Of a stretch of DNA of 64,000 bases, positions 5,756 to 29,361 are shown piece by piece; position 1 is the stretch's first letter, and each line of letters begins with the position of its first letter. This DNA is from Idiomarina loihiensis (GTDB lineage: Bacteria; Pseudomonadota; Gammaproteobacteria; Enterobacterales; Alteromonadaceae): positions 2,666,001 through 2,730,000 of the forward strand of contig NZ_CP074112.1 in the NCBI RefSeq assembly GCF_024584785.1. The letters run 5' to 3'. The translations under genes were made by a program, and so were the position numbers. The notes under the pieces were generated by a model. The model worked only from the letters and a program-made list of their open reading frames with translations. It ran no database searches and was not told the DNA's origin.

Positions 5756-6310
5756 CCCGTCGGGGCGGAGCATGGTAGTTTAGATAAGAACCGATATAAA
5801 AGTGCTGACCGTTATTGGGCGGTCATAATGCCGGTGTTCGCCGCGGATGGTTCAGTAAAATACATCATGAATCAACCGTCGGATATTACGCAGTTGGTGC
5901 AGCTTCGAGATAGAAACTTTTCCTCGTTACTAGGTGTAGATGTGATCGGTAAACCCCTTATCGATGCCATTCCGAAAGTAGAAGAGCAGGGAATCGTGGC
6001 ACTGCTTGACGGAGATGAGTTTTTACTGATTCTTGAGAATGCCGACCGTGAGCAGGCCCAAGTGATAGCTCAGCGCGTCAGCCACGCTATTGCTGATATT
6101 GCGTTTTATTGGGATGGTAACCGTTACAGCATTACCGCAAGTATCGGTATTTCTCGCTTTGGTACCAGTGTAGGTAAACGCTTTAACGATGGCCTTAGCC
6201 GCTTAGTAGATACCGATGGCACGGTCGTTCCGCCGGGTGCATTCATTATGGGCAGGGCTATGGCATTCATCGGCCCGCGCCGCTTTAAACCTAACATTAA
6301 CCAACATTGA
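5756..6310 (+). pseudogene. Mosaic remnant of PAS and GGDEF sensor genes
   Basis: Reading in the same frame as the GPP34 gene, straight after its stop codon, there are pieces of at least two sensor domains. First is a PAS end (DRYWAVIMPVF ... NQPSDITQLVQLRD). Then comes a PAS start (LLGVDVIGKPLIDAIPKVEE). Then, without the first half of the cyclase domain, comes a GGDEF C-terminal half (LLDGDEFLLILENADREQA ... ITASIGISRF). The signature reads DGDEF. The order and missing parts exclude a working diguanylate cyclase. Its last bases overlap the 3' end of the convergent hipA. From the ATG at 5828 a 160-residue product could be made, but no ribosome-binding site stands out. Confidence 0.65.
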
Positions 6311-7550: not shown

Positions 7551-7852
7551 TGTGAACCCTCAAGTAACTTAATGTTTTGTAACTTAATGCCTACTTCATC
7601 GTGCGCGGCCAATTTGGCGAAGTTGTCTTCCATGCCAAGTACGGCCATAACTTTTAGGTATGAGCCTATAGCCACACCGGGGTCTCCGGCAAAAATTTTA
7701 TTCACAGTTTTATAATCAAACCCGGTTCTGTCGCATATAAGTTTTTTGGTAAATCCGCGGCGTTTCGTCGCCAACAATAAATCCTCGCCGAATATTGCTA
7801 ATATTCGTCGTTGTTTGGGAAATAAAACTTTGTGTAAGTCGCGCTTTGCCAT
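7547..7852 (-). CDS. HipB-like antitoxin (module 2)
   Basis: A 101-residue basic protein with a helix-turn-helix near residues 32-60 (RRGFTKKLICDRTGFDYKTV, then NKIFAGDPG). That arrangement is seen in antitoxins that pair with this HipA subgroup. It is the first gene of a two-gene operon and overlaps hipA by four bases. Upstream there are four copies of a 12-bp palindromic site that continue up to the divergent SRAP gene, suggesting strong autoregulation. Confidence 0.8.
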   Translation of the reverse strand: MAKRDLHKVLFPKQRRILAIFGEDLLLATKRRGFTKKLICDRTGFDYKTVNKIFAGDPGVAIGSYLKVMAVLGMEDNFAKLAAHDEVGIKLQNIKLLEGSQ

Positions 7853-9442: not shown

Positions 9443-10585
9443 ATGTTAAGGGCGACAAAAGTACGCATTTACCCAACCCAAGACCAGGCTGAGTTTTTAA
9501 TAGCTCAGTTTGGCGCTGTGCGTTTCGCGTACAACAAGGCTCTGCATTTAAAGTCTCATATGTATCGCAAGCACAGGGTTACGCTGAACCCCAAAAAAGA
9601 CATAAAACCGCTGCTTGCAGTTGCTAAGAAATCACGAAAATACCACTGGTTGAAACAATATGATTCAATCGCCTTACAGCAGGCGGTTATCAATCTGCAT
9701 CAAGCCTTTGACAACTTCTTCAACCCGAAGTTAAAAGCCAAATTTCCGCAATTTAAACGCAAGCACGGCAAACAGTCGAGCTATCACTGTGTGGGTGTAA
9801 AAGTGCTGGATGGGGCTGTTAAGTTGCCCAAGATGCAGCCTGTAAAGGCAAATATCCATCGTGAAATTTCGGGAGCAGTTAAAAGCATTACAGTGAGCCT
9901 GAGTAAAACTGGCAAATTCTACGCCTCTATCCTTGTGGATGATGGAGTTAAAGCGCCTGCATTACTTCACACTATAAGCAAGGTTACAGGTGTTGATTTG
10001 GGGCTGTCTCACTTCACCATCGAATCAAACGGCAGAAAGACTGCCAACCCTCGATTTGTAAAACGCGCTGAGAAAAATCTCAGACGTAAGCAGCGTCAGT
10101 TGTCTCGTAAGGCTAAAGGGAGCGCCAACCGAGCAAAGGCTCGTTTGTTGGTTGCTAAATGCCACGAAAAAGCAGCAAACGCTCGTGCCGACTTTCAACA
10201 CAAACTCTCTCGAACTCTCGTTGACGAAAACCAAGCGGTGATAGTTGAGACATTGAAATCGGCCAATATGATGAAAAACCGTAAACTGGCAAAACACATA
10301 GCCGATGCCTCATGGTATAGCTTTGTCAACAAACTGGAGTACAAACTGAAAGAGCAAGGCAAATACCTAGTCAAGCTCGACCAGTGGTACGCCAGCTCTA
10401 AGACTTGCCATTGTTGCGGTCATAAAATGGAAGTAATGCCCTTATCGGTTCGCTCATGGGATTGTCCCTCATGCGGAACGATGGGTATAGATCGCGACTT
10501 AAATGCCGCCTTCAATATCCGTGATAAAGGCATTCTGGAATTAAAGGCGGCTGGACGGTCGTCTCTGCTTATGGAAGCTGCGTAA
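9443..10585 (+). CDS. tnpB: TnpB RNA-guided nuclease (IS200/IS605 family)
   Basis: TnpB of 380 residues, ancestor-type of Cas12. The RuvC-like catalytic residues are visible: the Asp in TGVDLGLSHF near 184, the Glu in VIVETLKSANMM near 268 and the Asp in GIDRDLNAAFNI near 350. The zinc ribbon with CHCCGH and CPSCG lies between the last two. The N-terminal block MLRATKVRIYPT and FGAVRFAYNKAL are family hallmarks. Known TnpBs cut DNA guided by an RNA made from the element's right end, helping the element persist. All catalytic residues are present, so it may be active. Confidence 0.94.
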   Translation: MLRATKVRIYPTQDQAEFLIAQFGAVRFAYNKALHLKSHMYRKHRVTLNPKKDIKPLLAVAKKSRKYHWLKQYDSIALQQAVINLHQAFDNFFNPKLKAKFPQFKRKHGKQSSYHCVGVKVLDGAVKLPKMQPVKANIHREISGAVKSITVSLSKTGKFYASILVDDGVKAPALLHTISKVTGVDLGLSHFTIESNGRKTANPRFVKRAEKNLRRKQRQLSRKAKGSANRAKARLLVAKCHEKAANARADFQHKLSRTLVDENQAVIVETLKSANMMKNRKLAKHIADASWYSFVNKLEYKLKEQGKYLVKLDQWYASSKTCHCCGHKMEVMPLSVRSWDCPSCGTMGIDRDLNAAFNIRDKGILELKAAGRSSLLMEAA

Positions 10586-11539: not shown

Positions 11540-12088
11540 ATGAAGCAACTCGACGCCATTCGAAAATTATCTGATTTCGACAAACAAGGTCGTTACGTTT
11601 ACGCACTGTCGGATCTCAGAAAAATTTTTCATGAAGACACTGAAGCAAATTTGCGAGCTGGTATTAAACGGCTAATTAAAGACGGCATTTTGGTGCGGGC
11701 GAGTAATGGTGTTTTTGTCTACATGCCTGCGCGTTCAAAGGGCAGCAGCACGCTAGAACTGGTGGCGCGTACTATTCGACGCGGTGAATACAACTATGTC
11801 AGCCTTGAGTCCGCGTTGTCAGAATACGGGGCTATTTCACAAATTCCAATTGATCGGTTAACGGTAATGACCACTGGCCGTTCAGGTGAATTTAAAACGC
11901 CCTTTGGCACTATCGAATTTACCCATACCAAGCGCAACGTTATTGATATTTTGGATAATTCCGTGGAAGTTGGTCGTCCGCTTCGGCTCGCCACGCAGGC
12001 TGCCGCCTATCGTGACTTAAAACAAGTTGGCCGCAATCTGCATTTAGTTGATACCGAAGTTAAAGTGGCATGGCATATAAGTGAATGA
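11540..12088 (+). CDS. AbiEi-like type IV antitoxin/transcriptional regulator, orphan
   Basis: A 182-residue protein with an N-terminal winged helix (LSDLRKIFHEDTEANLRAGI, then KRLIKDGILVRASNGVF). The C-terminal half resembles AbiEi antitoxins (YNYVSLESALSEYGAISQIP, TPFGTIEFTHTKR). In AbiE systems the next gene encodes the nucleotidyltransferase toxin AbiEii. Here the next gene is an exported HEAT-repeat protein, and no AbiEii-like gene was found within reach. It may be an orphan regulator or a remnant of a lost system. Confidence 0.72.
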   Translation: MKQLDAIRKLSDFDKQGRYVYALSDLRKIFHEDTEANLRAGIKRLIKDGILVRASNGVFVYMPARSKGSSTLELVARTIRRGEYNYVSLESALSEYGAISQIPIDRLTVMTTGRSGEFKTPFGTIEFTHTKRNVIDILDNSVEVGRPLRLATQAAAYRDLKQVGRNLHLVDTEVKVAWHISE

Positions 12089-12129: not shown

Positions 12130-13923
12130 ATGAAACGAGCACTGTTTGTCATTCTATTAGGCCTAGCCGCGCCAATGTCGCACGCGCTCGACCAAGTCAG
12201 CCCTTGCACCACCGTTGAGGCCTGCATTGCGCTGATACCTGAAAAAGACGTACCGAGTTACAGCAACGGCGAAGCCGATGAAGCCGTCAAAGCCCAGTTG
12301 CGTGCCTTTGGCCGCGACGCCCTAGAGCCCTTAGCCAAGCTTTCTGCGCACCCCAACAGCAACAAACGCCAGCTAGCCGACACCCTTATTGCAGACATAA
12401 AAGACATACGCCAAAGCGACTTTGAGCTGGTGCGCCAGGTTATTCAGAACAACGTAAAATTAGATGGCAGTGGCGGCTGGGCATACCGGTTGCTAGGCCG
12501 TATGGGCGGTGATCAAGCCGCTGAATTTTTGGTGAGTGAGCTTGTACGCGAAGGAAAAGGCGGCAACCAAATTGTGTTTGCGCTAGCCAAGATTGGCGCG
12601 CCGGCCATACCGCATTTGCTTAACGCTATGGCCTGTAAAAATAACTGTACCCCAGAAAGTTACGCGGGCTTTCAAGAAGTGTTTGATGACCTGCATCAGC
12701 TTGAAATATCGGATCAGCCAAGTGCGCTTGCGCTTCTTGCGTTGGCAAAAAACAACGACATTGACCCAGACATGCGTAAGCTAGCATTGGGGTGGGTAGG
12801 CTACATAACCGCCGAAAGCGCGCCCCTTGAAGCCGAGTTAATACGCATGGTAAAAGCCAACCCCGAGCTGAGTGAGCACGTACTCACCTCGCTAAAAGTA
12901 CTGAAAAGCCCCTATGCGGCGGACTTGTTAGTGGCCAAACTAGCCCAAGGCGAGGGCCTGTACCGCGAGTGGATACTGCGTGACATTGGCCACCTTGGCC
13001 ATACCGCCAAGCACGTGGGCGCCGAGGTTGAGCACTACCTAAATGCAGAAGACTGGAACACCCGTGCCGCCGCAGCCCGAGCACTCGGCTTTATTGGTTA
13101 TGAAAAGGCCGCGCCACGGCTACAAACGATGCTGCTCAACGAGCAAGACTGGCTGCAAGTGCACGCCGCCTTGCAAGCCTTGCATTGGTTGCAGTACAGG
13201 CCAGCACTAGACGACATTGAACATGTTGCAACCAGCCACTGGTATGCTTTGGTACGTGACTTTGCCGCAGTGACCGCACAACGACTGCGCGCAGATCAAT
13301 CGCCATTAGAAAAAGACGCTCAGCATTATTATTCACACCGCGCCCGCAATTGTAGTGCCGATCAATTTGCCATCATGGCAGAACCCGAGCAGATAAAAAT
13401 TTATGACCGTGAATTTAACGGCCTAAACCAATTTAGTTACAAACACCCTTGGTGCGCTGACAAAGAGGCCGCCGAAGCCGATGAATACCTGACAGAGTTT
13501 TGCGCTTCGCCCGAAAGCATGGTGCAGCCAAATGTTGCTGCCAAAGTTGGCGACAGCTGGTTAACCGGCACCAACAACGGCGAGTGGGGCGGCGAAATGA
13601 TGGCGTTTTACAAAGACGGCGCGCACGAACTTATACTTCACGAAAACATTGAAGACATATACAGCTACGGCTCTACCGCCTATGCCACCACGGGGCTGGC
13701 GCATTTAGGCATGAACAACGGTATTCTGTACCGCGCCACCGAAATAGCCAAAGGCTTCGCCGTAGAGCCCATTTACCGCCTGCCCGGCGCGCCCATGACC
13801 TCATGGAAGATAAACCCCCAGGAAATATTGATTAACACCTATTCTGGCCCCGTTATTTTTAACCCGGCCACTGGGCTGCGCACGCCGGATGGGTGTGAGG
13901 TTCGAACTAATGTGGAAAGTTAA
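12130..13923 (+). CDS. Exported HEAT-repeat protein of unknown function
   Basis: A protein of 597 residues with a clear Sec signal peptide (MKRALFVILLGLAAPMSHA). It is followed by helical repeats of HEAT type over about residues 40-390, for example GRMGGDQAAEFLVSELVREG, IGHLGHTAKHVGAEVEHYLN and AARALGFIGYEKAAPRLQTM. The C-terminal third (about 400-597) has several Cys and Trp and no repeat pattern; PVIFNPATGLRTPDGCE suggests a beta-rich domain. HEAT arrays usually mediate protein contacts; the partner is unknown. An AGGGAAC sequence precedes the ATG. Confidence 0.75.
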   Translation: MKRALFVILLGLAAPMSHALDQVSPCTTVEACIALIPEKDVPSYSNGEADEAVKAQLRAFGRDALEPLAKLSAHPNSNKRQLADTLIADIKDIRQSDFELVRQVIQNNVKLDGSGGWAYRLLGRMGGDQAAEFLVSELVREGKGGNQIVFALAKIGAPAIPHLLNAMACKNNCTPESYAGFQEVFDDLHQLEISDQPSALALLALAKNNDIDPDMRKLALGWVGYITAESAPLEAELIRMVKANPELSEHVLTSLKVLKSPYAADLLVAKLAQGEGLYREWILRDIGHLGHTAKHVGAEVEHYLNAEDWNTRAAAARALGFIGYEKAAPRLQTMLLNEQDWLQVHAALQALHWLQYRPALDDIEHVATSHWYALVRDFAAVTAQRLRADQSPLEKDAQHYYSHRARNCSADQFAIMAEPEQIKIYDREFNGLNQFSYKHPWCADKEAAEADEYLTEFCASPESMVQPNVAAKVGDSWLTGTNNGEWGGEMMAFYKDGAHELILHENIEDIYSYGSTAYATTGLAHLGMNNGILYRATEIAKGFAVEPIYRLPGAPMTSWKINPQEILINTYSGPVIFNPATGLRTPDGCEVRTNVES

Positions 13924-13933
13924 TACGATTTAA

Positions 13934-14149
13934 TGGAGGCGCAAATGGCGCTACTGGCGCTGCGGCCTTGCCGACGGCTCCGCCGTTTCGGTGAACATTT
14001 ACGAAAAAGCACCGGGTAAATCGGCACTTTCGATTGAGCACTCGAAGCTTGAAAGCGACGCGCAAGTTGAGCATTGGCGGGTGTGGTGGAAAGGGGTGGG
14101 GGGTGAAGGAGCTTTGATAGAACAAGTAATTTACAACGCGATAAATTAA
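13934..14149 (+). pseudogene. Short gene remnant without start codon
   Basis: An open frame of 71 codons that begins directly after a stop and has no ATG or plausible alternative start. It reads ADGSAVSVNIYEKAPGKS, then ALSIEHSKLESDAQVEHWRV and WWKG. This ADGS-VxVN-Y-K-PGK / EHxKL / WK pattern is reminiscent of the C-terminal end of small SRPBCC/DUF4287-type proteins, but the assignment is tentative. It occupies the 300-base gap between the HEAT-repeat gene and the defence operon, so it may mark the edge of the insertion. Confidence 0.4.
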
Positions 14150-14225
14150 AGCCTATGAGCACAGCGAATAATTAATTAAGATAGGCAGAACATAGTCTCA
14201 CTAAATTTATAAATAAGAGCCAAAA

Positions 14226-15809
14226 ATGGAATTTCCAGTCATAGATCTGTTTGCAGGGCCGGGCGGCCTTGGCGAGGGATTTAGCTCTCTAAATAATGGG
14301 CAATTAAAATTTAAAATAATAGCCTCGGCGGAAAAGGACCAGTATGCCCACGAAACCTTAAAATTAAGAGCCTATTTTAGGCGTCTTAAAAGCGACTTTC
14401 CTCAGTACCTATCTGATTATTACGATTTTGTTAACGGGAATTCAGATTTACCATGGACTGAACGTACTCGCGACATCTGGCAGGATGCCGTGTCTGAAGC
14501 GCTATTAGTAGAGTTGGGGACCGAAGAGGGAAATGCGAGATTAAACGCTGTAATTGAGGACCGTCTAAAGGATTTTCCTAAGGATATGCCGGCAGTACTA
14601 ATTGGTGGGCCGCCTTGCCAAGCGTACTCATTAGCTGGGCGAGCGAAAAATATGAATGATGCTCGCTACGATCCATTGAAGGATACGCGAAACTTTCTTT
14701 ATCGTGAGTATTTAAAGGTACTTCAATCCCATAGCCCAGCTGTCTTTGTTATGGAGAATGTAAAAGGCATCTTGTCGTCAAAAATAAATAATCAATTTAT
14801 TTTTCACCAGATACTGCAAGACCTTTCTGAGCCAACTAAAGCTCTATTTAATAAAAAAGATGGCCACCGGTACGTAATTTGCTCATTAGTAACCGATGTG
14901 CACTTTAAAGCTGGAGATGATCCCAGTTCAATTGATTCAAGATCTTTTATTATTAAGTCAGAAGATTATGGAATTCCTCAGTGCCGCCATCGAGTGATTT
15001 TATTGGGTATACGAGAAGACTATTATCGAGATGATATTCCCTTACTTGAGAAAACAGAAATTCGGACAGTCGGATCGGTCATTAATGAGCTACCTCGTCT
15101 TCGGAGTAAGTTTTCAAAAATCGACGATAGCGCAGAAGTTTGGTCGAGGTTAATTTCTGAGAGCATTCGAGCAATCGCAGAACGGCTACGCAGTAAAAAG
15201 CGAAAAGCAGATTCCGAGTTAATCAAAAATCTTACTAAAGTTTCTAAAAGCCTTCCAAAGGAAGTATTAAAGACTGGAGGCCTTAGGGTTCCTGAGGTGG
15301 AGCATAATTTTGCAGTATCCAAAATAGAATTATTGGAAGGCTGGTATAAAGACAATAATTTAAAAGTTGTACTTAATCATGAATCTCGAGGACATATCCT
15401 CAAAGATATTGTGCGCTACACCTATGCTGCGTGCTTTGCGATGACTAACGAGCGCTCTCCTCGAGGACATGGAGATTATGACCACGTAGGTTTAGCTCCA
15501 AGTCATAAAAATTGGCAATCGGGTAAATTTGTCGATCGTTTTAAAGTACAAGAAAGTGAAAAGCCAGCATCCACAATAACCAGCCATATCTCGAAAGACG
15601 GCCACTATTTTATTCATTACGATCCGACACAAGCTCGAAGCTTGACGGTACGCGAAGCTGCAAGAATACAAACATTTCCAGACAATTATTTTTTCCAAGG
15701 ACCAAGAACCCAGCAATATCATCAAGTTGGAAATGCGGTGCCGCCACTCTTAGCTAATAAAATCGCTATCGTTGTAGAGCATATTTTGCTTAATGCTCAC
15801 ATGGCATAG
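14226..15809 (+). CDS. DNA (cytosine-5) methyltransferase of the defence operon
   Basis: C5 methyltransferase of 527 residues. All main motifs are visible: motif I DLFAGPGGLGEGF (7-19), motif IV GGPPCQAYSLAGR with the catalytic Cys near 131, motif VI MENVKG near 177, motif VIII QCRHR near 251, motif IX REAARIQTFP near 478 and motif X QVGNAVPPLLA near 503. It presumably marks host DNA to protect it from the associated nuclease genes; the target sequence is unknown. It is the first gene of the five-gene AT-rich cassette, separated from the next by 135 bases that may carry a second promoter. Confidence 0.93.
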   Translation: MEFPVIDLFAGPGGLGEGFSSLNNGQLKFKIIASAEKDQYAHETLKLRAYFRRLKSDFPQYLSDYYDFVNGNSDLPWTERTRDIWQDAVSEALLVELGTEEGNARLNAVIEDRLKDFPKDMPAVLIGGPPCQAYSLAGRAKNMNDARYDPLKDTRNFLYREYLKVLQSHSPAVFVMENVKGILSSKINNQFIFHQILQDLSEPTKALFNKKDGHRYVICSLVTDVHFKAGDDPSSIDSRSFIIKSEDYGIPQCRHRVILLGIREDYYRDDIPLLEKTEIRTVGSVINELPRLRSKFSKIDDSAEVWSRLISESIRAIAERLRSKKRKADSELIKNLTKVSKSLPKEVLKTGGLRVPEVEHNFAVSKIELLEGWYKDNNLKVVLNHESRGHILKDIVRYTYAACFAMTNERSPRGHGDYDHVGLAPSHKNWQSGKFVDRFKVQESEKPASTITSHISKDGHYFIHYDPTQARSLTVREAARIQTFPDNYFFQGPRTQQYHQVGNAVPPLLANKIAIVVEHILLNAHMA

Positions 15810-15882
15810 ATATTTAGAGAAATTTTTGAAATTAGTGATTGTTTGATCATTTACTATATATTTTACAAAGCGCTGTCTTTTG

Positions 15883-15911
15883 TTGTACAACATAGCAGAC
15901 GATGTTATAAA
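15883..15911 (+). promoter_or_regulatory. Candidate internal promoter before the MORC-like gene
   Basis: A -35-like TTGTAC (15883-15888) and -10-like TATAAA (15906-15911) with 17-bp spacing. The -35 lies inside the perfect 12-bp palindrome TGTTGTACAACA (15881-15892), a possible operator. This would allow the effector genes to be expressed separately from the methyltransferase. Confidence 0.4.
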
Positions 15912-15944
15912 AATATTTCTTTTGCTTAGCGAGGGAGTGTTGAA

Positions 15945-17462
15945 TTGAGACGTTTCTTGACTGTTGACGCAACACCAAAACCAGATTTTTTAATTAAGTC
16001 CTTAGCTGAGCAGGGATATAGTCTCAAAGCAGCTATAGCTGATTTAATTGATAATTCAATTGCAGCAAAGTCGTCGGCAATAGAGGTTTTGGTTGATACG
16101 GAGTCCGAACCATTTTGCTTATTTATTGCTGATAACGGTAGTGGAATGTCGCGAGGTCAGCTAGAAGCAAATATGCAGTTTCCTAGCTCCAATCCAGAAA
16201 TATCACGTTACGAATCTGATTTAGGCCGATTTGGCTTAGGACTGAAAACTGCTTCTTTCTCTCAGACTAGGAAGTTCACCGTCATGTCTCGTACAGACAC
16301 TGATGACGAATTTTACGGGCTAACTTGGGATGTGGAATACCTCAAAAAGACAGGGAAATGGGAAATAATTGTAAATTCAAAGGAGGATGTTGAAAGTCTC
16401 AAAAGCAAATATGATGAACTATCCAAAGCGTTTAATAAGAGGATGAAAGATTTTATACCGAGAACGATTGTAATATGGTCAGGGCTTTATAAATTCGAAG
16501 ACTACCTATCGACATCCAATAGAAAATCAGCCTTGCAAAGAGAGATAGTTGAACAAGCAAGTGAACATCTAAGTATTATTTTCCATCGATTTTTAGAGCG
16601 GGACAACGACCCGCTAATGATTCGCATAAATAATATGCTGATTGAGCCTTTTAACCCTTTTCCTGAAGATAATAAAAGCTTGAGAAAGCTTGAATTTAAG
16701 AAAAAGTCATTTGGTGGTGACTCAATAAAAATGGAAGGTTTTATTCTGCCTGCCTCCAGTATAAAAGAGGCTCGCACAACTAGAACTAAGTGGACAACCG
16801 AAAACAAAAGCTTATCAGATATGGAGGGCATCTATATCTATCGTTCTGATCGACTAATCACCTATGGAGGCTGGAATGGATTGATTCGTAAAGCCCCCAG
16901 GTTGCAGTTGGCACGTTTGCGTGTTGACATAGGAAATCAAGCCGACCACCTGCTACATCTTAATGTCGCAAAATCTAAAGTTATAATTCCACACGAACTT
17001 TCTCAAGCCTTCAAAAAGTATATATCAGAACTTACTGAAGAGGCTGAAAAAGAATTCTTTAATCGAGGGATAAGTCGATTTGTCACCAGTGATTCAAATA
17101 AAGAAGAGACAATTTTAAGAAAAGTCGCATCTAACAAAGGGCCTCTATTAGAGATTAATAGAAAATTTCCCATTTTGAGTAGTCTTTTGTCATCGCTTGA
17201 TGTAAATCAGCAAAGCCAGATGAGTTTGATAATTAGAATGGTAAATACACAAATAAATAAAATTAGAGCGACTCATCAAGATGTAGATTTTTTCGAATTA
17301 AAGGAAGTTGACGGCAAGGGTTTGCTGGAGATATTTGAGTCGTTGAGAAAACAGGGGTTCACCAATGATTTTATTCGGAGAAACTTGATTCAAGAACTTG
17401 GAATAAATTCAGAAAGCATCCCGCCAGAAATTGCCAACGAGTTGGAGATAAATAATGGATAG
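15945..17462 (+). CDS. MORC/MutL-like GHKL ATPase of the defence operon
   Basis: A 505-residue protein starting at TTG with GAGGGAG seven bases upstream. The Bergerat ATP-binding fold is at the N-terminus: N-box DLIDNS (34-38 region), G1 motif DNGSGM (63-68) and G2 motif GRFGLGLKTAS (94-104). Iyer, Abhiman and Aravind (2008) described such MutL-related ATPases as part of predicted restriction-modification systems and as relatives of eukaryotic MORC proteins. The ATPase probably clamps DNA or senses it for the nuclease. The stop overlaps the start of the Z1 gene by eight bases. Confidence 0.86.
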   Translation: MRRFLTVDATPKPDFLIKSLAEQGYSLKAAIADLIDNSIAAKSSAIEVLVDTESEPFCLFIADNGSGMSRGQLEANMQFPSSNPEISRYESDLGRFGLGLKTASFSQTRKFTVMSRTDTDDEFYGLTWDVEYLKKTGKWEIIVNSKEDVESLKSKYDELSKAFNKRMKDFIPRTIVIWSGLYKFEDYLSTSNRKSALQREIVEQASEHLSIIFHRFLERDNDPLMIRINNMLIEPFNPFPEDNKSLRKLEFKKKSFGGDSIKMEGFILPASSIKEARTTRTKWTTENKSLSDMEGIYIYRSDRLITYGGWNGLIRKAPRLQLARLRVDIGNQADHLLHLNVAKSKVIIPHELSQAFKKYISELTEEAEKEFFNRGISRFVTSDSNKEETILRKVASNKGPLLEINRKFPILSSLLSSLDVNQQSQMSLIIRMVNTQINKIRATHQDVDFFELKEVDGKGLLEIFESLRKQGFTNDFIRRNLIQELGINSESIPPEIANELEINNG

Positions 17463-20400
17463 CTACAGGCTTAGATATCAAGATGCTATTAAGGATAAGC
17501 TAAAGATTTATCTCGAGAAGGGTAGTTTTGAATCATTAGTAGAAATAAATTCTTCGGTTTACCAAGAAATAAGAGATAGTATAAAAGCAGGTGCTGAATT
17601 TCTTGGGTGGCCGGAATTAGATGAGGCAACATTTAAATCATTTTACGAGGTAGTTCGAAAGGAAGTTCAAGCGAATCATGTTACTACAATATTGCCACTG
17701 CACATACTGTCAAAGACAAAAAAAACTTGGCTTAATGAAAAGGTTTTTGGCGATATTAAATGGAATTATACGGATCGGTATCTTGAATATCTAAGAAGTA
17801 ATGGTCGAGCAGATTCAGTCGTTAATGAGATAGAAAATTCGAGCTTGAAAATATTAGGCCGATTAGGAAATCCAAGTTCAAGTAAGCCATTCTTTATAAA
17901 AGGGTTGGTTGATGGTGATGTTCAGTCCGGAAAAACAGGGAATTTTAATGCCGTTATTAATCGAAGTTTAGATGCGGGATATAAGCTAGTTATTGTTTTA
18001 TCCGGTATTATGGATGATCTGCGAGATCAGACACAAGGGCGAATTGATTTGGATGTTGTGGGGGATGGTATTGGTGTAGGAGAAAGATCTAGGTTCGGTC
18101 ACCAAGGTAATAGTAACGTAGCTCAGGTAGTTTCAATTACATCAACAGATTCCGATTTCTCTCGACCGTTGGCTGACGCAAACTTTTCGTTAAACCACAC
18201 TAATATCATGGTGTGTAAGAAAAATGTAAGTATTTTGAGAAATATTCTTTTGTGGTTATATGATAATTTGATTCCCAACGAGTCTCATCACAAAATACCA
18301 TTATTGATAATTGATGACGAAGCAGATAATGCATCTCTTAATAATGAAGGCCATAAAGGTGAGAAATACGCGTCGACAATAAATGGTTATATTCGCGCTA
18401 TATTAGGTCTTTTTCATAAGAAATCTTACCTCGGATATACGGCTACACCTTTTGCCAATGTCATACAGGACAGAAATGGGCCAAGCGCCGAGAAATGGGA
18501 CGTTTTAGATAAAGCTAAAGGTCGTAATCTGCAATTTGACCTTGTAAATAATCTTTTTCCAGATGACTTTATCATTCTATTGGATGCTTCCAGTAATTAT
18601 ATTGGGCCGCATTCGATTTTTGACTCATTCCAAAATAATGAAAAGCTGCCTGTGGTGTTCGAGGTCAATGATTATATTCCTAATTTTCCAACTCGTGTTT
18701 ACAATAATGAAGGTAATGTAATTGGCGTAGAACGATTTGACACAAAATCTGATTGGGATGAAAGAGTTGGATCGCATAAGGCTTATCTTGATTTCGCGAA
18801 CTACTCTGAATATCGAAGCTCAACAAGGGCTGCGAAAGCTATCGATGATTTCCCAAAAGAGCTCCCACAAAGCATTATCGATGCAATGTTGTGCTTTATT
18901 ATTGGTATAGCAGTACGGGAAACCAGACGTATCGACATGGTCCAAAGCAATTTGTACCAACCACATAATACTATGCTTATCCACGTCTCACGCTATACAT
19001 CATGGCAAAACCGAACAGCACATTTAATAAAGAGCCATTATAAAAAAATCATTGAAGGTTTAAAGTTAGACAAACCTAATGCGCCGAATTCAATATATAA
19101 GAAGTTCGAAAAGGTTTGGGTAGATTATTGTGATTACATCATAGGATCCATAGACCATTATTTACCTACAGATTATCAAGATAAGTTTATGCGCCCCGTA
19201 TCTTTTGAGACGATAGTCCCCTTGCTCGAAAACGCCGCATCAAACATCGAAATATTGGCGCTAAATAGCTCGACGGGAGAAAAGATCAAGTACGAGAAAT
19301 CATCCCCTAGAAAAATAATCGCTATTGGTGGTAACAGGCTATCACGGGGTTTTACTCTTGAGGGGCTGACTATTAGCTATTTTGTAAGGACAACGAACTA
19401 TTCCGATTCATTGTTACAAATGGGTCGATGGTTCGGGTATCGTCCAGGATATCTAGATTGCTGTAAACTTTTTACGTCAAATGATCTAATTAGGAATTAC
19501 AATTCTACAACTTGGTGTATTGATGAGCTTAAAGATGAGTTTAGAAGTATGGAGCAGAAAGGCGCTAACCCTCGACAGTTTGAGATAAGAGTCCGAACGC
19601 ATCCAGGCGTTTTGAAAATAACTCGCCCGTCTATTCTAAAAAATTCAACGACCGTTAAGTGGTCATTTCAAGACTCTCTGGTAATGACGACTGAATTCAA
19701 CGTGAATAAGAAAAAAATAAATTCAGTGTGGGAGCATTTTAGAGATGGAATAGCGCCTTTGTTTCAGGAAAGCTACATAAATGGATCTATGCTAGTCGCG
19801 GAAGCGAATACTCACCAATTGTTAGATATTCTAAATGGTAGTACCAACTTTGAAGCGTCAAGGTTAGAGCTCATAAAGCAATATATTGAAAAGGCAAACA
19901 AAAAGAACTTATTAACTAACTGGACGTTAGCGGTAAAGCTTACAGGATCGGCGACCGAAGATGCTGGCTTGGGCAAAATTAAACCGGAGCAGAGTAATTT
20001 ACCTGAAGAAGTCACGCTTGCGGTTAGAAGAGGACCAAAACAAGCCCGAGGAAATCATTTTTATCGTGATTTTCTAGAACTAGAAATATTTCGAGCCGGC
20101 GGGGCCTCAAGAAATATTATGAGCAGTGGCTCAGATATGAGAGCCGCTTTGGACAATGATGTTGCGTTGAGAGCTGAGGAAAAGTTTCGTGTAAGAAAAG
20201 GTGATGAACTGCGTCTTAAAAATCCTGAACTCAGTGATAACGAAATTGTTGAATTGGTAAAGAAGACCACCATACCTGAAAGAGTCTACCGTGAGTGTTT
20301 GCCGGCGTCGCAAGGAGTATTGGTAATATACTTATTTGATCCAATGTACACGTTCAATCAGACGCGAGGTGATGAAAATGAAGAAATTGCAGAGTTACTT

Positions 20401-20580
20401 TCGAAAAGACAACAAAATTTAAATCAACCGCTTGTAGGCATGGCTATAGGATTTCCGCCGATAGAACGACAGTTAGATCCCTGCGGGACATACGTAAAGG
20501 GTGATTATGAATTAGAAACTGCCGATGAGGATATCGATGATGCGGCTGGTGAGTTTGTACCATTCGATTCGGAGTCATAA
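17455..20580 (+). CDS. Z1-domain ATPase/helicase-like protein
   Basis: A large protein of 1041 residues. A P-loop GDVQSGKTGNF lies near 152-162 and a DEAD-like Walker B LLIIDDEADNAS near 282-293. The Z1 hallmark RLSRGFTLEGLT ... SLLQMGRWFGYRPG is around 630-665. Z1 is a superfamily-II-helicase-related domain found with MORC-like ATPases in predicted defence cassettes. It likely uses ATP to remodel or move along DNA during restriction. It overlaps the upstream ATPase gene by eight bases and shares one base with the next start (TAATG), so the four effector genes form one translationally coupled block. Confidence 0.88.
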   Translation: MDSYRLRYQDAIKDKLKIYLEKGSFESLVEINSSVYQEIRDSIKAGAEFLGWPELDEATFKSFYEVVRKEVQANHVTTILPLHILSKTKKTWLNEKVFGDIKWNYTDRYLEYLRSNGRADSVVNEIENSSLKILGRLGNPSSSKPFFIKGLVDGDVQSGKTGNFNAVINRSLDAGYKLVIVLSGIMDDLRDQTQGRIDLDVVGDGIGVGERSRFGHQGNSNVAQVVSITSTDSDFSRPLADANFSLNHTNIMVCKKNVSILRNILLWLYDNLIPNESHHKIPLLIIDDEADNASLNNEGHKGEKYASTINGYIRAILGLFHKKSYLGYTATPFANVIQDRNGPSAEKWDVLDKAKGRNLQFDLVNNLFPDDFIILLDASSNYIGPHSIFDSFQNNEKLPVVFEVNDYIPNFPTRVYNNEGNVIGVERFDTKSDWDERVGSHKAYLDFANYSEYRSSTRAAKAIDDFPKELPQSIIDAMLCFIIGIAVRETRRIDMVQSNLYQPHNTMLIHVSRYTSWQNRTAHLIKSHYKKIIEGLKLDKPNAPNSIYKKFEKVWVDYCDYIIGSIDHYLPTDYQDKFMRPVSFETIVPLLENAASNIEILALNSSTGEKIKYEKSSPRKIIAIGGNRLSRGFTLEGLTISYFVRTTNYSDSLLQMGRWFGYRPGYLDCCKLFTSNDLIRNYNSTTWCIDELKDEFRSMEQKGANPRQFEIRVRTHPGVLKITRPSILKNSTTVKWSFQDSLVMTTEFNVNKKKINSVWEHFRDGIAPLFQESYINGSMLVAEANTHQLLDILNGSTNFEASRLELIKQYIEKANKKNLLTNWTLAVKLTGSATEDAGLGKIKPEQSNLPEEVTLAVRRGPKQARGNHFYRDFLELEIFRAGGASRNIMSSGSDMRAALDNDVALRAEEKFRVRKGDELRLKNPELSDNEIVELVKKTTIPERVYRECLPASQGVLVIYLFDPMYTFNQTRGDENEEIAELLSKRQQNLNQPLVGMAIGFPPIERQLDPCGTYVKGDYELETADEDIDDAAGEFVPFDSES

Positions 20581-21539
20581 TGAATTTAAAAGCAAAATGG
20601 ACGACTCTTATTGAGCAAGCAAAATCTTCGGGCTTAAATACATTACGTTTTGAATCTGACGGTCCTTTGGAGTTGTTCTTAGGGATTGATAGCGATAAAA
20701 ATCGTTTGGTTATGATTCAGGTTCCAGCAGAGTACGACCCAAAAATTAAATTATTGAAAAATGAAAACATCGAATTAATCTTTATTAAAGATTCTAGTTG
20801 CTTGATAATTAGGGTTTTTGATAGTGACTATAACGCGATATTTGATGACTTAATTTCATCATTGCTAAACTCTATCGATGAATCTGATAATGCAGTAAAT
20901 GCAGCAGATAAGTTTCTTTTGACTTATTTTAAGTGGAATTCATTTTTCTCAAAATATCCCAAGAAAATATTGGGCTTCCAGAAGATTCTAGGTCTTTGGG
21001 GGGAGTTAGTATATTTGTATCGATTGTTAGATGAGTCCACTAATCAAAACGGAATTAACTCAGTTTTATCCGGATGGGTTGGGCCGATGGGTGCCGCGCA
21101 CGATTTCGAATTCGACAAACACGCTTATGAAGTAAAAGCCAAATTAAAAAATTCAAATCTCATAAGGATCTCGAGTGAATTTCAATTAGAATCTGTGGAT
21201 AATAAAGACATAAAACTAGTTGTTATTTCCGGTGAGCGTAGTGATGACGGTGATACAATAGAAGATATGGTGACGAAGTGTCAGGAACTAATTACTTTAA
21301 AGGGCGGGGACTTCAGCCTCTTTCTTAGTAGCATTCTAGAGGCTGGTTTAAATTTGGTTACGATTGAATCGTGTGTTGATGTGAAAATTCGCTTAGTATC
21401 GATAGATATTTATGATTGTTCGGCATCGGAATTCCCCAAATTCACTCCTACAAATCTACCTATTGGGATTTCAAGTGTAAGATATAATTTAGACTGCGGT
21501 GAAATAGAAATATATAAGATTTTCTCGGAGACCTTCTAA
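20580..21539 (+). CDS. DUF4420-like PD-(D/E)XK motif protein
   Basis: A 319-residue protein with the outline of the PD-(D/E)XK nuclease family that accompanies Z1 genes. LGLWGELVYLYRLLDE carries the conserved Glu, followed by the active-site-like HDFEFDKHAYEVKAK near 174-188, where Asp, Glu and Lys are spaced as in D-(x)n-ExK. It is the probable DNA-cutting subunit of the cassette. Its ATG overlaps the Z1 stop codon by one base, and its stop directly abuts the AIPR start. Catalytic assignment is by motif only. Confidence 0.8.
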   Translation: MNLKAKWTTLIEQAKSSGLNTLRFESDGPLELFLGIDSDKNRLVMIQVPAEYDPKIKLLKNENIELIFIKDSSCLIIRVFDSDYNAIFDDLISSLLNSIDESDNAVNAADKFLLTYFKWNSFFSKYPKKILGFQKILGLWGELVYLYRLLDESTNQNGINSVLSGWVGPMGAAHDFEFDKHAYEVKAKLKNSNLIRISSEFQLESVDNKDIKLVVISGERSDDGDTIEDMVTKCQELITLKGGDFSLFLSSILEAGLNLVTIESCVDVKIRLVSIDIYDCSASEFPKFTPTNLPIGISSVRYNLDCGEIEIYKIFSETF

Positions 21540-23393
21540 ATGGATCTTAATTCAACATTTTCTACAAAGCAGGATTTAATTGACGCAAGTTTGGATAGTG
21601 ATGGATTTGTCCAGCAGAGTTTACTTCTTGACGAAATTTTGCCGTTATTATTAGAGACGAAGGTTGTAGATTCTGAAGATATAAATCATACATATTATTT
21701 GTCTTCGGATAATAAAGCCAAAATTAATGGATATACAGTAAATGGGACGGGTGAAAGACTACAGATTTTTATTGTAGACGATGACTGGCTTTTGGTCGAT
21801 GCTCAAGAGTCAACAGTATCGCAACGATCTGCTTATGAAGAACAATTTAAACGCGCGGAACGGTTTATTAGTAATGCTTTGCAGGGAAGTTTATCGGACG
21901 TTCAAGAGTCTGACCCAGTGAAACCTTTAGTAAGTAGACTTTCAAGTGTTGATGGCATTGAGAGCTTTGATGTTATCGAGTTCTTTTTAGTAACACTTAC
22001 ATCAACAGTCTCTTTCAAGGGGAAGTCAGTTGAGCTTCGCTCAATTCACTTTCAGGACGAGGTAAAAAATTATAGTTACACAAACCAGCAAGGACTTAAG
22101 TCTCGGAAGGAAATTCTTTTTATTCGCCGAGTTATAGATCTTAATTACTTAGCAAATGTGATCGCTTCTCAAGGGCGTGCGGAACCATTGGTCGTTAGAT
22201 TCAAAGACGTCATAGGAAACAATATTAAGGTCATTAAAGCCGCTGAGGGAGGAGATTTTGAGTCCTACTTATGTGTATTGGATGCTAATATTCTAGTTGA
22301 TTTATATAAACGATACTCAAGCCAGTTGTTGGAAAAGAACGTGCGTTCATTTCTACAATTTAAGGGCGTAAATAAGGGAATAAGGCAAACTATAAGAGAC
22401 GAACCTGAGAAATTCATCGCATATAATAATGGTCTTACAATAACCGCGACATCAGCTAGTTGTGTATACCATAAGAAAGAACTATATCTTGAAAGTTTGG
22501 TGGACTTTCAAATCGTAAATGGGGGGCAGACTACAGCTTCAATATACTTTTCAAATAAAGAAGGTATTGATGTTAGCAAAGTAAAAGTTATGGCGAAGAT
22601 CAATGTCGCTAAGAGCACTAGGTCTGATGATCTCGAAGATCTTATTTCCAAGATAAGCGAATATTCTAACTCGCAATCGAAAGTATCTAAAGTAGACCTT
22701 AGATCTCGAAATAAAAAGCTGATAAAGCTTAAGTCACTGAGTGATACGGTCATGACCCCCTCGGGGAAACGATGGTTTTTTGAGAGAGCAAAAGGGGATT
22801 TCAATACGCAGGTTCGTAAGGCTCCCAACTCGAATAGGTTAAAATCCGAATTCCCTCCGGAACGGCGTTTCACCAAAGAACTCATGGCCAAATATTATTG
22901 TGCATGGGGTGATGCACCTTATATGGTGAAGAAGGGAGGAGAAAAGGTCTTTAGGACCTTTATAGAGAATTTAGATCCCGAGGTGGGTCCTGATGTAGAA
23001 GTAGATCGATCTTTCTACGAGGAGCTCGTAGCTAGAATTATAATTTTTCGTACAATGGAAAAAATTTATGGGCAGGGGAAAGGTGCGATAGGCCAGCTTC
23101 GTTCAGCTGCGGTACCATATGCGATGTCAGCTATTTTTAATTGGAATATCAGTAATAATAACCGCTTTTCATTGCAAAGAATTTGGAGAGAAGAGCAAAT
23201 CGGTGAACAACAGAAGGAGTATTTTAAGAGTTTGCTCCAGCTGATAAATGATTTGATAAAAAGGTATTCACTTAGTGATGACTTTGGTGAGTATTCCAAG
23301 AAGCAGGAGTTGTGGGAATCTATAAAATCTTCGCAAGAACTAAAGGATTTTATGAGTAATGCTTATACTTCAAAAATGTTAGACTTTTCATAG
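21540..23393 (+). CDS. AIPR (abortive infection phage resistance) family protein
   Basis: A 617-residue protein with the AIPR signature: FIAYNNGLTITA near 292-303, then FQIVNGGQTTASIYF near 323-337 and the long C-terminal FFERAKGDF/PPERRFTKELMAKY region. AIPR proteins were first linked to phage abortive infection and recur next to Z1, MORC-like and DUF4420 genes. The biochemical role is not settled. It is the last gene of the operon, starting on the base after the DUF4420 stop, and ends about 100 bases before the convergent HNH remnant. Confidence 0.88.
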   Translation: MDLNSTFSTKQDLIDASLDSDGFVQQSLLLDEILPLLLETKVVDSEDINHTYYLSSDNKAKINGYTVNGTGERLQIFIVDDDWLLVDAQESTVSQRSAYEEQFKRAERFISNALQGSLSDVQESDPVKPLVSRLSSVDGIESFDVIEFFLVTLTSTVSFKGKSVELRSIHFQDEVKNYSYTNQQGLKSRKEILFIRRVIDLNYLANVIASQGRAEPLVVRFKDVIGNNIKVIKAAEGGDFESYLCVLDANILVDLYKRYSSQLLEKNVRSFLQFKGVNKGIRQTIRDEPEKFIAYNNGLTITATSASCVYHKKELYLESLVDFQIVNGGQTTASIYFSNKEGIDVSKVKVMAKINVAKSTRSDDLEDLISKISEYSNSQSKVSKVDLRSRNKKLIKLKSLSDTVMTPSGKRWFFERAKGDFNTQVRKAPNSNRLKSEFPPERRFTKELMAKYYCAWGDAPYMVKKGGEKVFRTFIENLDPEVGPDVEVDRSFYEELVARIIIFRTMEKIYGQGKGAIGQLRSAAVPYAMSAIFNWNISNNNRFSLQRIWREEQIGEQQKEYFKSLLQLINDLIKRYSLSDDFGEYSKKQELWESIKSSQELKDFMSNAYTSKMLDFS

Positions 23394-23493
23394 TTGATTT
23401 CACGGAAAAGAATGACGCTCTTAGGAATCGCCGAATCTTACTTAAAATTAATTAAGTATCTACCGGACAATTGGCGCTGATTTGAAGCGTTCA

Positions 23494-23954
23494 CTACCAA
23501 TCCCGCAACTGCTGTATCTGCTTAATCCGGTCACGCTGCACGGTCAGCGCTTCAAATACATCGTTGTAGTTAGTGTTGTTGGGCGTTAAATCGGGCAACG
23601 CAAAATTTGCCTGAGTAAAGAACTCACGCTGGTTGCTGTCCCATGCTTGCTGCCACCATTCCAAAATATAAGCGCGTGACTGCGTCAACCTCTGTCGTGT
23701 AGGTAACTTGTCCGACTTATTTTCGTTGATTTTTTTCTGGGTCGGTAACAAGTTCCACAAGTCGTTATTGGGCCAGCGAGCAAACGGAAAAGCATGATCA
23801 ACCGCGTAAGCGTTCTTATTTAACGAACGGCCGCTCCAGCAGCAATCGACATCAGCCAATGCATCAACACGTTCACGAACCCTGCGGGTTGATCGCTCTG
23901 GGTTCTCCCATTGCAGTGCATTAAAATAGTCTAATTTAGTGTATGCGCTAGGGT
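23494..23954 (-). pseudogene. 3' part of a methyltransferase-HNH fusion gene, cut off by IS21
   Basis: Encodes the last 150 residues of a gene whose 5' part is at 26385-27602. The HNH-like core AYAVDHAFPFARWPNNDLWN with LLPTQKKINENKSDKLP is intact. The frame continues upstream into the IS element as a spurious start, so no functional protein is expected from this part alone. Joining it to the 5' part through one copy of the AGGGT duplication gives a continuous frame (REHP then SAYTK). Confidence 0.85.
23950..23954. repeat. Target site duplication, left copy
   Basis: AGGGT directly outside the left terminal TGT of the IS21-family element; the same five bases follow the right end at 26385-26389. 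Confidence 0.85.
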
Positions 23955-24011
23955 TGTCAATGGCCATTAAAATTGATCCACTTTTGGCCAATAAAATTGA
24001 CCCACCTGCGA

Positions 24012-24755
24012 TCAGGTTTTGCTAACTTTCTCCTTCAGTCGATAGCTTTCTCCTCCGAGCATAAATATGTGTGAGTGATGGATGATGCGGTCGATGATCG
24101 GTACCGCAACATTGTCATCATGGAAGAACTCACCCCAACTGGTAAAATCTTTGTTCGTTGTTAAGATGATAGACCGATATTCGTACAAGCTATTGATTAG
24201 CTGGAATAAGTTGTAACGCGACTGACGCGACATGGGTAAGTAGCCCAACTCATCAATGATGATGAGATCGTATTTACTTAGCTGTGTGAGCCGCTTTTTG
24301 AGCTCTCCCTTCATTTCGGCAAGCTCAAGTTCCTCTACCAGCGTCAATGCGTTTCTGAACAAAACTTTATATCCAGCTTGGATTGCTTCATGACCGATCC
24401 CAATGGCCAAGTGGGTCTTGCCCACGCCCGGCGGGCCAATAAAGATCACATTTTGGCGCTCATCAATAAAGCTAAAGTCGAGTAACCCATTGATTTGGCG
24501 CTTGGTTACCGTGGTTTGGTGACGGTAGTCGAACAAGTCGAGACGTTTTTCATTTGGGAACTGTGCCTGTTTGTAGTGGCGTTTTATTCGGTTCACGTTG
24601 CGTTGGGTGATTTCATGTGACACTAACGATTCAGCGAAGCTTAAGTAGGATTCTTCATTGGCTTCAGCCGTGGCCACCAGAGTGGCCAACTGGCTCGCTG
24701 CTGCACCTAACCGTAAGCTACGAAGCTGCTTAGCGATATTGTCTAACTGGTTCAT
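24012..24755 (-). CDS. istB: IS21 transposition helper ATPase IstB
   Basis: AAA+ helper of 247 residues. Walker A GPPGVGKTHLAIGIG lies near 107-121 and Walker B LIIIDELGYL near 170, followed by the sensor-like ILTTNKDF. IstB is the DnaC/DnaA-related ATPase that selects the target and stimulates the IstA transposase. Its start overlaps the istA stop by four bases, the normal arrangement. Confidence 0.96.
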   Translation of the reverse strand: MNQLDNIAKQLRSLRLGAAASQLATLVATAEANEESYLSFAESLVSHEITQRNVNRIKRHYKQAQFPNEKRLDLFDYRHQTTVTKRQINGLLDFSFIDERQNVIFIGPPGVGKTHLAIGIGHEAIQAGYKVLFRNALTLVEELELAEMKGELKKRLTQLSKYDLIIIDELGYLPMSRQSRYNLFQLINSLYEYRSIILTTNKDFTSWGEFFHDDNVAVPIIDRIIHHSHIFMLGGESYRLKEKVSKT

Positions 24756-26266
24756 GATAGGCTCCGTTGCGCGTTAACGTGGCTAATACGGCGGTACATG
24801 CTTAAATCGATAGTCACGGGGCTATCCTCCTCGTCATCGGCCATGCGTCCGCGCTGCTCGGCACTGAACCATGCATCGATATGCTCACGCATCTTGCTCG
24901 CCGTTAACTCTTCTCGCTCAAGCAAGTGGGCTGTAAGTGCCGTGGGTAACTCACCGTAGTGCTTTAATACATCCAGAGCACCGCGCAGTTGGTCTTTATA
25001 GAACCGAGGCATGGTTGCTTTGAGCTGTGCCGCAATAGCGCGACCAACATCGATACCTAGACGCTCGTTGAGGTACGCTTCAAGCGCTTCTACCGCCTGC
25101 GTTTTGTCGCGGTAATGGTCGCGGTTTTTGATAATAAGGCCTTTATCAAGACTGACCGTATGTTGGCCAATAAGCTCACCGGTGGCAGGGTCGAGTAAGA
25201 GTAATTGACCATTGGCTTCACTGACACCAACTCGGCTTTGTTGCCATTCCATAGGCACCGAGTACTTGTTCGAGGCCCAAGAGATCAGCCCCGTTTTATC
25301 AACCTTGCGCGTTTGCATGGGCGTGTTGTCTAAGCTGGCCATAGCTACATGATAGTGGTTCATGTGTGACCGCTCTGAGCGGTCATAATGGCGCTGCGGC
25401 TGCTCTTTGGTGGTGCCGTGTACTCGAATGTTGGCTACTTCATTTAGCCAATCAAGCGTGTAAGCGCGGAGCTCTGTTTCACTGCGGAATGACTCACCAT
25501 ACAGACAGTCCTGTTTGACGTACTTAACTGCTGCTTCAACCTTGCCTTTGCTCTCCGGATCAAAACCCTCGCAAGCATGAATATGGAATGATGCCGCCGT
25601 GGCGTACTGCGCAAAGCGTTGATTGAGTTTGAGCTCGCGATATTCTTCGCTCAAGACCACCAACTTAGTTTGGTCATAAACACATTCTTCGGTCACGCCG
25701 CCGAAGTAGCGAAACGCTTCGTCGTGCATCTCAATAAAGCGCTGTGTATTCAGCGGTTGCAGCGAAAGGCCTACGTACATGAGGCGGCTGTATGAGAGCA
25801 CAAACGCAACAAAGTAAACGGTGTGTGGCTTACCATTGATGAGCACACCACGAAGCTCACCAGGGTCAACCTGACACTGCACACCGGGAACAGTTTCGAT
25901 GATGGGTTCATAATAACGATACTGCCCGACAGCAACCTCAGCTTTTAAGTTTTGCACGTAACGGCGCATGCTGCGTTCGGATATGGGCAGCTTGCCCACC
26001 TTGCGACATAATCGGCGCATGAGCTTCACTGCGGACAACTTGGGGTAGTCTTTAAGCTGGTTGATCAGATAATCGCGATAGCCATCAAGCCACTTTTCAC
26101 GCGAGGTATCTTCCATCATCACGCAGATACCTTGCGCGTCCATTGCTAAGTATTTTTTCACTGTGTTGCGCGAGATGTTCAACTCTCGGCTAATGGCACG
26201 GATCGAGAGTCCTTGTCCGTTGTCGTACATCGATTTTATTTTGTGTATCACTGTCCACTCCTTCAA
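24752..26266 (-). CDS. istA: IS21 transposase IstA
   Basis: Transposase of 504 residues. The N-terminal helix-turn-helix (NGQGLSIRAISRELNISRNT) binds the terminal repeats. The DDE catalytic domain shows QVDPGELRG, VYDQTKLVV and the Glu in FDPESKGKVEAAVKYVKQD. The C-terminal beta-barrel-type region contains WASNKYSVPMEW. It is full length for the family and overlaps istB. Confidence 0.96.
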   Translation of the reverse strand: MKEWTVIHKIKSMYDNGQGLSIRAISRELNISRNTVKKYLAMDAQGICVMMEDTSREKWLDGYRDYLINQLKDYPKLSAVKLMRRLCRKVGKLPISERSMRRYVQNLKAEVAVGQYRYYEPIIETVPGVQCQVDPGELRGVLINGKPHTVYFVAFVLSYSRLMYVGLSLQPLNTQRFIEMHDEAFRYFGGVTEECVYDQTKLVVLSEEYRELKLNQRFAQYATAASFHIHACEGFDPESKGKVEAAVKYVKQDCLYGESFRSETELRAYTLDWLNEVANIRVHGTTKEQPQRHYDRSERSHMNHYHVAMASLDNTPMQTRKVDKTGLISWASNKYSVPMEWQQSRVGVSEANGQLLLLDPATGELIGQHTVSLDKGLIIKNRDHYRDKTQAVEALEAYLNERLGIDVGRAIAAQLKATMPRFYKDQLRGALDVLKHYGELPTALTAHLLEREELTASKMREHIDAWFSAEQRGRMADDEEDSPVTIDLSMYRRISHVNAQRSLS

Positions 26267-26384
26267 TGTGCCGCCCCCGCTTTATTAGTTGAACGGGAAA
26301 CGGTACAGAAAAATGTGGCCGAAGCCACGAAAAGTGGATCAAAATTAATGGCCGAAAGTGGGTCAGTTTAGTTGGCCATTAACA

Positions 26385-26389
26385 AGGGT
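26385..26389. repeat. Target site duplication, right copy
   Basis: AGGGT directly after the right terminal ACA of the IS21-family element, matching the copy at 23950-23954. Confidence 0.85.
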
Positions 26390-27602
26390 GCTCGCGGTTA
26401 TAACCTTCCATCAAACTAACCCATTCATTAACTAATGCTGGCTCTATCCAGACGCTGTAGTTCGTTAGCACATCCCAAATGGAGCGCGGCACATAAAAAG
26501 TCCCGAGTGACTTTAAGAATTCAAAATCGAGTATCAAACTATGTTTCGGCGCCTGACTTCGGTTCAGTTCAACCTGAAATATCTCGTCTTTGGTGCCGGG
26601 TAATGTGATGTATTTAGCCGGCATGTTTTTAATTGTCGATGCGATATCTTTTAAAGTGCGATAGACGCTTGTTGCTTCGTCACTATCAAAAATGCAACGG
26701 CCGATATAAAAGTCATTGGGGCTGTAGTTTGTGAGTGTTTCCCAACCGTTGGCTTTAACGAACCCCAACTTTCCGCTGCCACCTTGGTGCATAGAAAATG
26801 TGTCGACTAATGGTTTGTATAGCTTTAACCAATACAGGGATACTAATCCCATAGGCAAAGCAATGTGGCTTTGTGTGCGCTCGAGTACTGCTCCAGGATG
26901 GCCTTCGGCAATCCTTAATAGGGTGCGTAAGAGAGCGACTTTGTAGGTGGACGACTTACTATCATTAATGACGATGTTTCTGATTAACGGGAAGGCCCCC
27001 GTTCCATCATCCGGCAACGTCAACAGCACGGTTTCCCAGGCGACATCCTGCCGACCAAGCTGGTCATCACGGGCATTCAGAAGTCGAAAACTTAAGCCTT
27101 GCTGTTGTGCATATTGTTTCAGTTCATCAGCTGATACCGGGTGCATGGTACGGGTATCGGGGCTAGCTCCATGCCGCAACGAAATCACCATGTTGCCATT
27201 GGGCTTGAGTAGCGAGCTTAGTTTACGAAAGGCGCGCTGGCGCGAAGACGGAGCGATATGCATCCATACCGCGCTCAGTAAAATGAGGTCGAATTTCGTT
27301 GCGTGGCGTTGCACATGCTTCAGTTCAGGCAAACTATCGTTGATCCAGTGTACCGAAGGATTGGGATGATACTGCTGGGCGCGTTCGCGAATGCCATCTG
27401 CTGGCTCGACTGCATAAACAGTGAGGCCACGATCAGCGAGATAACGCGCATCACGGCCTGAACCGGCACCAACATCTAGCACTAAGCCATCAGTTGGAAT
27501 GAGATCAAGCCAGTCGCGGTGTACTTGCTCAAAATCAAGGCTGTCATATTGGTCGGCAAGCTGTTCAGCGTTGCGGGTGTAATAGTGAATTGTATCGTCC
27601 AT
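26385..27602 (-). pseudogene. 5' part of a SAM-methyltransferase/HNH fusion gene, interrupted by IS21
   Basis: Starts at 27602 and encodes 406 native residues before the IS junction; the reading then picks up one Cys and a stop from the IS. The class I methyltransferase motif VLDVGAGSGRDARYL is near residue 40, followed by FDLILLSAVWMHI. A middle region of unknown fold begins near 205 (FPLIRNIVINDSKSSTYKVA). The C-terminal HNH domain is separated and lies at 23494-23954. The rebuilt protein would have 556 residues. The target of the methyltransferase part (DNA, small molecule or protein) cannot be told from the motif. The 5' part could still make a truncated methyltransferase. Confidence 0.83.
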
Positions 27603-27656: not shown

Positions 27657-28076
27657 CTAAAAACTCAAACTAACCACCAATCGCCGCGCCCCACCATGGT
27701 CACGGTGTTCGCAAAGGTACACCCCTTGCCAAACGCCCATGTTCAGCCGCCCGTTAGTTACAGGAATAGTCACCGAGCTACCTAGCAAGCTGGCCTTCAA
27801 GTGAGCGGGCATGTCGTCAGGGCCTTCGAAAGTGTGCCGGTAGTAGGGTGCGTTTTCGGGCACCATTTCGTTGAAGTGGCTTTCAAAGTCTTGGCGCACC
27901 GAGGGGTCGGCGTTTTCGTTAATGGTGAGCGAGGCCGAGGTGTGCTGAATAAACACGTGCAAAATGCCGGCATCCACGGTGCCTAACTCAAATAACGCAC
28001 GCTCAATGTCGTCGGTTATTAAATGAAATCCGCGTGGCTTTGGCGCAATGGTTATGGTGGTTTGTTTTACCGGCAT
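27657..28076 (-). CDS. YjbQ / UPF0047 family protein
   Basis: A 139-residue single-domain protein of the YjbQ family, reported to have secondary thiamine-phosphate synthase activity. Hallmarks are HVFIQHTSASLTINENADPS, YYRHTFEGPDDMPAHLKASL and the end GRLNMGVWQGVYLCEHRDHG. Length is normal. Its ribosome-binding region overlaps the 3' end of a short truncated membrane-protein remnant read in another frame just upstream. Confidence 0.92.
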   Translation of the reverse strand: MPVKQTTITIAPKPRGFHLITDDIERALFELGTVDAGILHVFIQHTSASLTINENADPSVRQDFESHFNEMVPENAPYYRHTFEGPDDMPAHLKASLLGSSVTIPVTNGRLNMGVWQGVYLCEHRDHGGARRLVVSLSF

Positions 28077-28336: not shown

Positions 28337-28789
28337 ATGAATACTTATGAACAACTACCGACTGCGCAGGAATCTGCACTAGCGAAATTGTGTAGCCAAG
28401 AACTTGCTGCGGTGATCGAAACGAAGTTAGATGTTCAGTCTTTGTCATTAAGCTCTCCAGATGGCCAGCTAAAGCAAGTTGAGATCCCGGTGAGTGCGCT
28501 TCGCTTAATGGTGAATTTACTGACTGAGCTAGGCGAAGGCAATACCGTGAAATTAGTGCCCATACATGCTGAACTGACAACACAAGAGGCTGCAGATTTA
28601 CTGAATGTGTCTCGTCCAACAGTAATTAAGTTATTGGATGATGGAACTGTACCATTTCATCGAGTTGGTAACCGAAGAAAAGTGCGCTTTAACGACATAA
28701 GACAGTATCAAAACCAACTAGAACAGAAGCGACTGAAAGCTCTCAATGAATTGTCGAAGATGGATCAAGAGTTAGGGTTAGGCTACTGA
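28337..28789 (+). CDS. Excisionase-type HTH antitoxin
   Basis: A 150-residue protein. The C-terminal half holds an excisionase/MerR-like helix-turn-helix (LTTQEAADLLNVSRPTVIKL, then LDDGTVPFHRVGNRRKVRF). The N-terminal half is helical. Proteins of this type pair with PIN_3 toxins and act as antitoxin and repressor. The stop codon shares one base with the PIN start (TGATG), and twin operator repeats occupy the promoter. Confidence 0.85.
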   Translation: MNTYEQLPTAQESALAKLCSQELAAVIETKLDVQSLSLSSPDGQLKQVEIPVSALRLMVNLLTELGEGNTVKLVPIHAELTTQEAADLLNVSRPTVIKLLDDGTVPFHRVGNRRKVRFNDIRQYQNQLEQKRLKALNELSKMDQELGLGY

Positions 28790-29361
28790 TGAGCTCAAGC
28801 TATACGGTTATCTTTGATGCTTGCGTATTGTATCCGGCACCGCTGAGAAGTCTGCTGATGTATTTGGCGCTCAGCGGTGAGTTCAGGGCTCGTTGGACGA
28901 ATGATATTCATGACGAATGGATTAGAAATGTATTAGCGAATCGACCAGACTTAACGCGCGAGCAATTGGAGAATGTGCGAAATTTAATGGACAAGCACGT
29001 ACCTGGGGCAATTGTGCAAAATTATCATCCGCTTATCTCGTCAATATCTTTACCCGATGAAGATGATCGTCATGTGGTTGCTGCAGCAATACAAACCCGA
29101 GCGGAGGCAATTGTGACGTTTAATTTAAAAGACTTCCCCGATAATCAACTTAGTCAATATAATCTTAAGGCTATTCATCCGGATGATTTTATAACAGATT
29201 TGATGGAGCTAAACATCGTAGCTGTTATTCAAGCTGTTAGACATCATCGTGCAAGTTTGAAAAATCCGCCGTTTACCGCCACTCAGTATCTTGATTGTTT
29301 GTTGAAGCAGAAATTACCAGAAGCCGTTTCACGGCTAAGTGAATTTAAAGCGCTATTTTGA
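28789..29361 (+). CDS. PIN-domain toxin (PIN_3 group)
   Basis: A 190-residue PIN-domain ribonuclease candidate. Acidic active-site residues are visible in VIFDACVLYP (Asp near residue 10), NDIHDEW, DEDDRHVVAAAI (near 84-95) and VTFNLKDFPD. PIN toxins cleave RNA with bound Mg2+/Mn2+. It is coupled to the upstream antitoxin by a one-base overlap. It looks complete. Confidence 0.86.
   Translation: MSSSYTVIFDACVLYPAPLRSLLMYLALSGEFRARWTNDIHDEWIRNVLANRPDLTREQLENVRNLMDKHVPGAIVQNYHPLISSISLPDEDDRHVVAAAIQTRAEAIVTFNLKDFPDNQLSQYNLKAIHPDDFITDLMELNIVAVIQAVRHHRASLKNPPFTATQYLDCLLKQKLPEAVSRLSEFKALF

Follow-up and report, generated by a model that had tools for sequence, protein, structure and literature searches.

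The five-gene array and its MZA-like core

The DNA analysed here is a 64,000-nucleotide stretch of Idiomarina loihiensis (NZ_CP074112.1, positions 2,666,001 to 2,730,000; hereafter the window), in which we examined a tight array of five genes on the forward strand. The array, first noticed in a sequence-only reading, proved to be real, and the C5 methyltransferase, MORC-type ATPase, DUF4420 and AIPR genes named in that reading were recovered by motifs and profile matches.

14226..15809, + strand: C5-cytosine DNA methyltransferase, 527 residues, with motifs PPC (129), ENV (177), QCRHR (252) and QVGN (500)
15810..15944: gap of 135 bp between the methyltransferase and the four core genes
15945..17462, + strand: MzaB-like prokaryotic MORC ATPase (GHKL and S5), 505 residues, TTG start
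17455..20580, + strand: MzaC homologue
20580..21539, + strand: MzaD-like DUF4420 protein, 319 residues
21540..23393, + strand: MzaE-like AIPR protein, 617 residues

The 135-bp gap contains no promoter-like match on the + strand. We regard the five genes as an intact operon with a predicted anti-viral role.

Four of the genes correspond to MZA (mzaABCDE), a system reportedly described by Gao et al. in 2020. Compared with the E. coli loci, the MzaB-MzaC-MzaD-MzaE homologues stand in identical order and are as tightly packed, but they share only 21–28% identity, and a C5 methyltransferase takes the place of MzaA. All four fell short of the NCBIfam equivalog cut-offs for MzaB to MzaE (197.6/850, 358.5/1500, 82/420 and 269.1/1050 bits, respectively). 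A phmmer search with E. coli MzaA (E <= 10) found no such sigma-like first gene in the window; its matches were confined to open reading frames (ORFs) of loci L115, L120 and L092. We class the system as a diverged representative of a group that is known and has been tested in part. Among the E. coli loci, mzaB is apparently split by IS421 in two (L137 and L138), and a third (L139) carries a second copy, comprising at least mzaC-D-E, just upstream of a full mzaA-E.

The ATPase had been proposed to be a MORC relative, and this identification held. In addition to the GHKL motifs of a prokaryotic MORC, the protein contains GIYIYRSDRLI, which matches the MORC motif GhXhhpXXRhl as defined by Iyer. 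Residues G295, Y297, Y299, R300 and R303 of the S5 domain are invariant (39/39), and sequence matches in the PDB at E <= 0.01 are confined to MORC3 and MORC4. DUF4420, previously put forward as a PD-(D/E)XK candidate, shows a signature of this type in E142, D175 and E184-x-K186, all four residues being invariant (39/39). The C-terminal half of its predicted model (pLDDT 87.9), a candidate restriction-endonuclease fold, aligns to PvuII, DpnI and HincII. The AIPR protein has at its N-terminus a nuclease-like fold in which no ExK is visible, then a putatively ParB/Srx-like middle with an invariant N327-G-G-Q330, and a helical C-terminus.

Exchange of the methyltransferase

Judging by sequence comparison, the four-protein core is passed on as a unit and the adjoining methyltransferase is exchanged among relatives. 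None of the core genes follows the methyltransferase, nor does any 30-residue window of the core, and a likelihood test of methyltransferase versus core revealed no phylogenetic coupling. Together, inheritance of the core as a unit and exchange of the methyltransferase hint that the choice of what to attack lies with the methyltransferase and not with the core. The methyltransferase would then set the target for a constant effector, the core.

A possible but rather doubtful alternative is that the core is blind to the methyltransferase target and reads another feature of the invading DNA, like the E. coli MZA, the methyltransferase being either an accessory with loose linkage or a self-mark whose sole effect is to damp the core. 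The missing phylogenetic coupling would fit, as would the E. coli mza loci, which lack an annotated methyltransferase within the stretches read, and the position of canonical MZA, nested among methyltransferase-bearing cores beside L092 and L120, which have both MzaA and a methyltransferase. However, a single methyltransferase subfamily serves 28 of the 34 loci. The enzyme and the core are found together much more often than expected by chance, and in 28 of the 34 loci they lie no more than 600 bases apart.

It is less probable still, albeit compatible with the other readings, that the AIPR protein acts as an abortive-infection effector, which kills when the other proteins trigger it, and not as a switch for DNA cleavage. 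The family name and a PADLOC match to AbiU favour this role, as does the N-terminal HEPN RNase that a 2012 paper assigns to AIPR.

The sequence-only reading had cited a 2008 prediction by Iyer, Abhiman and Aravind that such combinations are restriction-modification-like systems. Its interpretation is supported in part. Conventional restriction-modification, in which a core protein itself recognises the same site as the methyltransferase, survives only as a very unlikely rival: the methyltransferase does co-diverge with its partners in the six CglI-like loci that served as comparison, whereas the core shows no such tracking here. Least probable of all, given recognition segments that fall into types of unlike length (77–162 residues) and share 15–35% identity in six core-similar pairs (15–26% in five), is a neutral exchange in which every methyltransferase of the main subfamily has one common target site and any of them fits any core, even though they share a common framework with a median identity of 53%. 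In the I. loihiensis enzyme the hypervariable segment spans approximately residues 296–384, which we take to be the target-recognition region from its position between motifs VIII and IX.

Genomic setting and other genes in the window

The cassette is part of a locus that varies among congeners and adjoins yjbQ; in congeners G012, G019 and G017 it holds other defence-like cassettes.

12130-13923 to 27657-28076: the variable locus, between a HEAT-repeat gene and yjbQ
23494-23991, 24012-26266 and 26379-27602, all - strand: SAM-methyltransferase/HNH gene split by IS21 (istB, istA)

Positions 14098..23495 have no blastn homology to the corresponding locus of congener G017; homology ends after 14097 and restarts at 23496. 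At the same place, G017 (L202) encodes a helicase-like protein of 1075 residues and the undivided form of the IS21-interrupted gene (6072-7781; 569 residues), and congeners G012 and G019 (L200, L201) encode an HNH protein, a 245-residue protein and a C5 methyltransferase fused to a helix-turn-helix (HTH), as read by eye.

Several other genes in the window were recorded. An AbiEi-family antitoxin (11540-12088, +) scored 242 bits against an NCBIfam cut-off of 150; its listed neighbours are SDR-like and HEAT-repeat ORFs, with no obvious AbiEii toxin, for which no search was made. Four ORFs read as HipA-like kinases (2128-3477, 6297-7550, 31415-32749 on the - strand and 33479-34756 on the + strand), three matching PADLOC PDC-M03A weakly and the fourth having no PADLOC match. 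A Fic-like protein (12-1481, +) strongly matches the PADLOC candidate PDC-S24 (494 bits). At 28337-29361 (+), an excisionase-type HTH (54 bits against a cut-off of 28.8) stands in tandem with a PIN-domain ORF (133 bits, under the cut-off of 170), and the two perhaps form a toxin-antitoxin unit. A TnpB-like RNA-guided endonuclease ORF (9443-10585, +) scored 330.7 bits with NCBIfam guided_TnpB.

Relation to other defence systems

We saw no difference in gene set from the putative 'Type II' defence system described by Miller et al. in 2022 (PMC9523054), whose section on that system gives neither a mechanism nor methyltransferase exchange. CglI and NgoAVII, as described in PMC4267653, have three genes without MORC or AIPR, and a PLD-B3 nuclease where DUF4420 stands here. 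DISARM class 2 shares DrmMII, the best PADLOC model for the methyltransferase (PDLC02649, 315 bits), and the other four proteins have no PADLOC match to DrmA, DrmB or DrmC. In BREX, PglX is the specificity factor according to PMC11341690, so that the proposed logic, a modification enzyme setting the target of a constant effector, would be the same. The methyltransferase here differs in being of the C5 family, and the matches listed for the five gene products, which in the case of the methyltransferase cover 25 of its 56 PADLOC rows, include neither PglZ nor BrxC.

Gene sets of this kind are reported to be widespread in bacteria. The sequence-only reading knew of no settled mechanism for them, and we found none published in the open literature. 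Because the methyltransferase is exchangeable, the mechanism becomes directly testable, and a system described as restriction-modification-like with unknown mechanism is reduced to a question that one swap can answer, namely whether the methyltransferase decides which DNA is restricted. If it does, these MORC systems, which are kin of the eukaryotic chromatin MORCs, would join BREX in a class whose targeting subunit is the modification enzyme.
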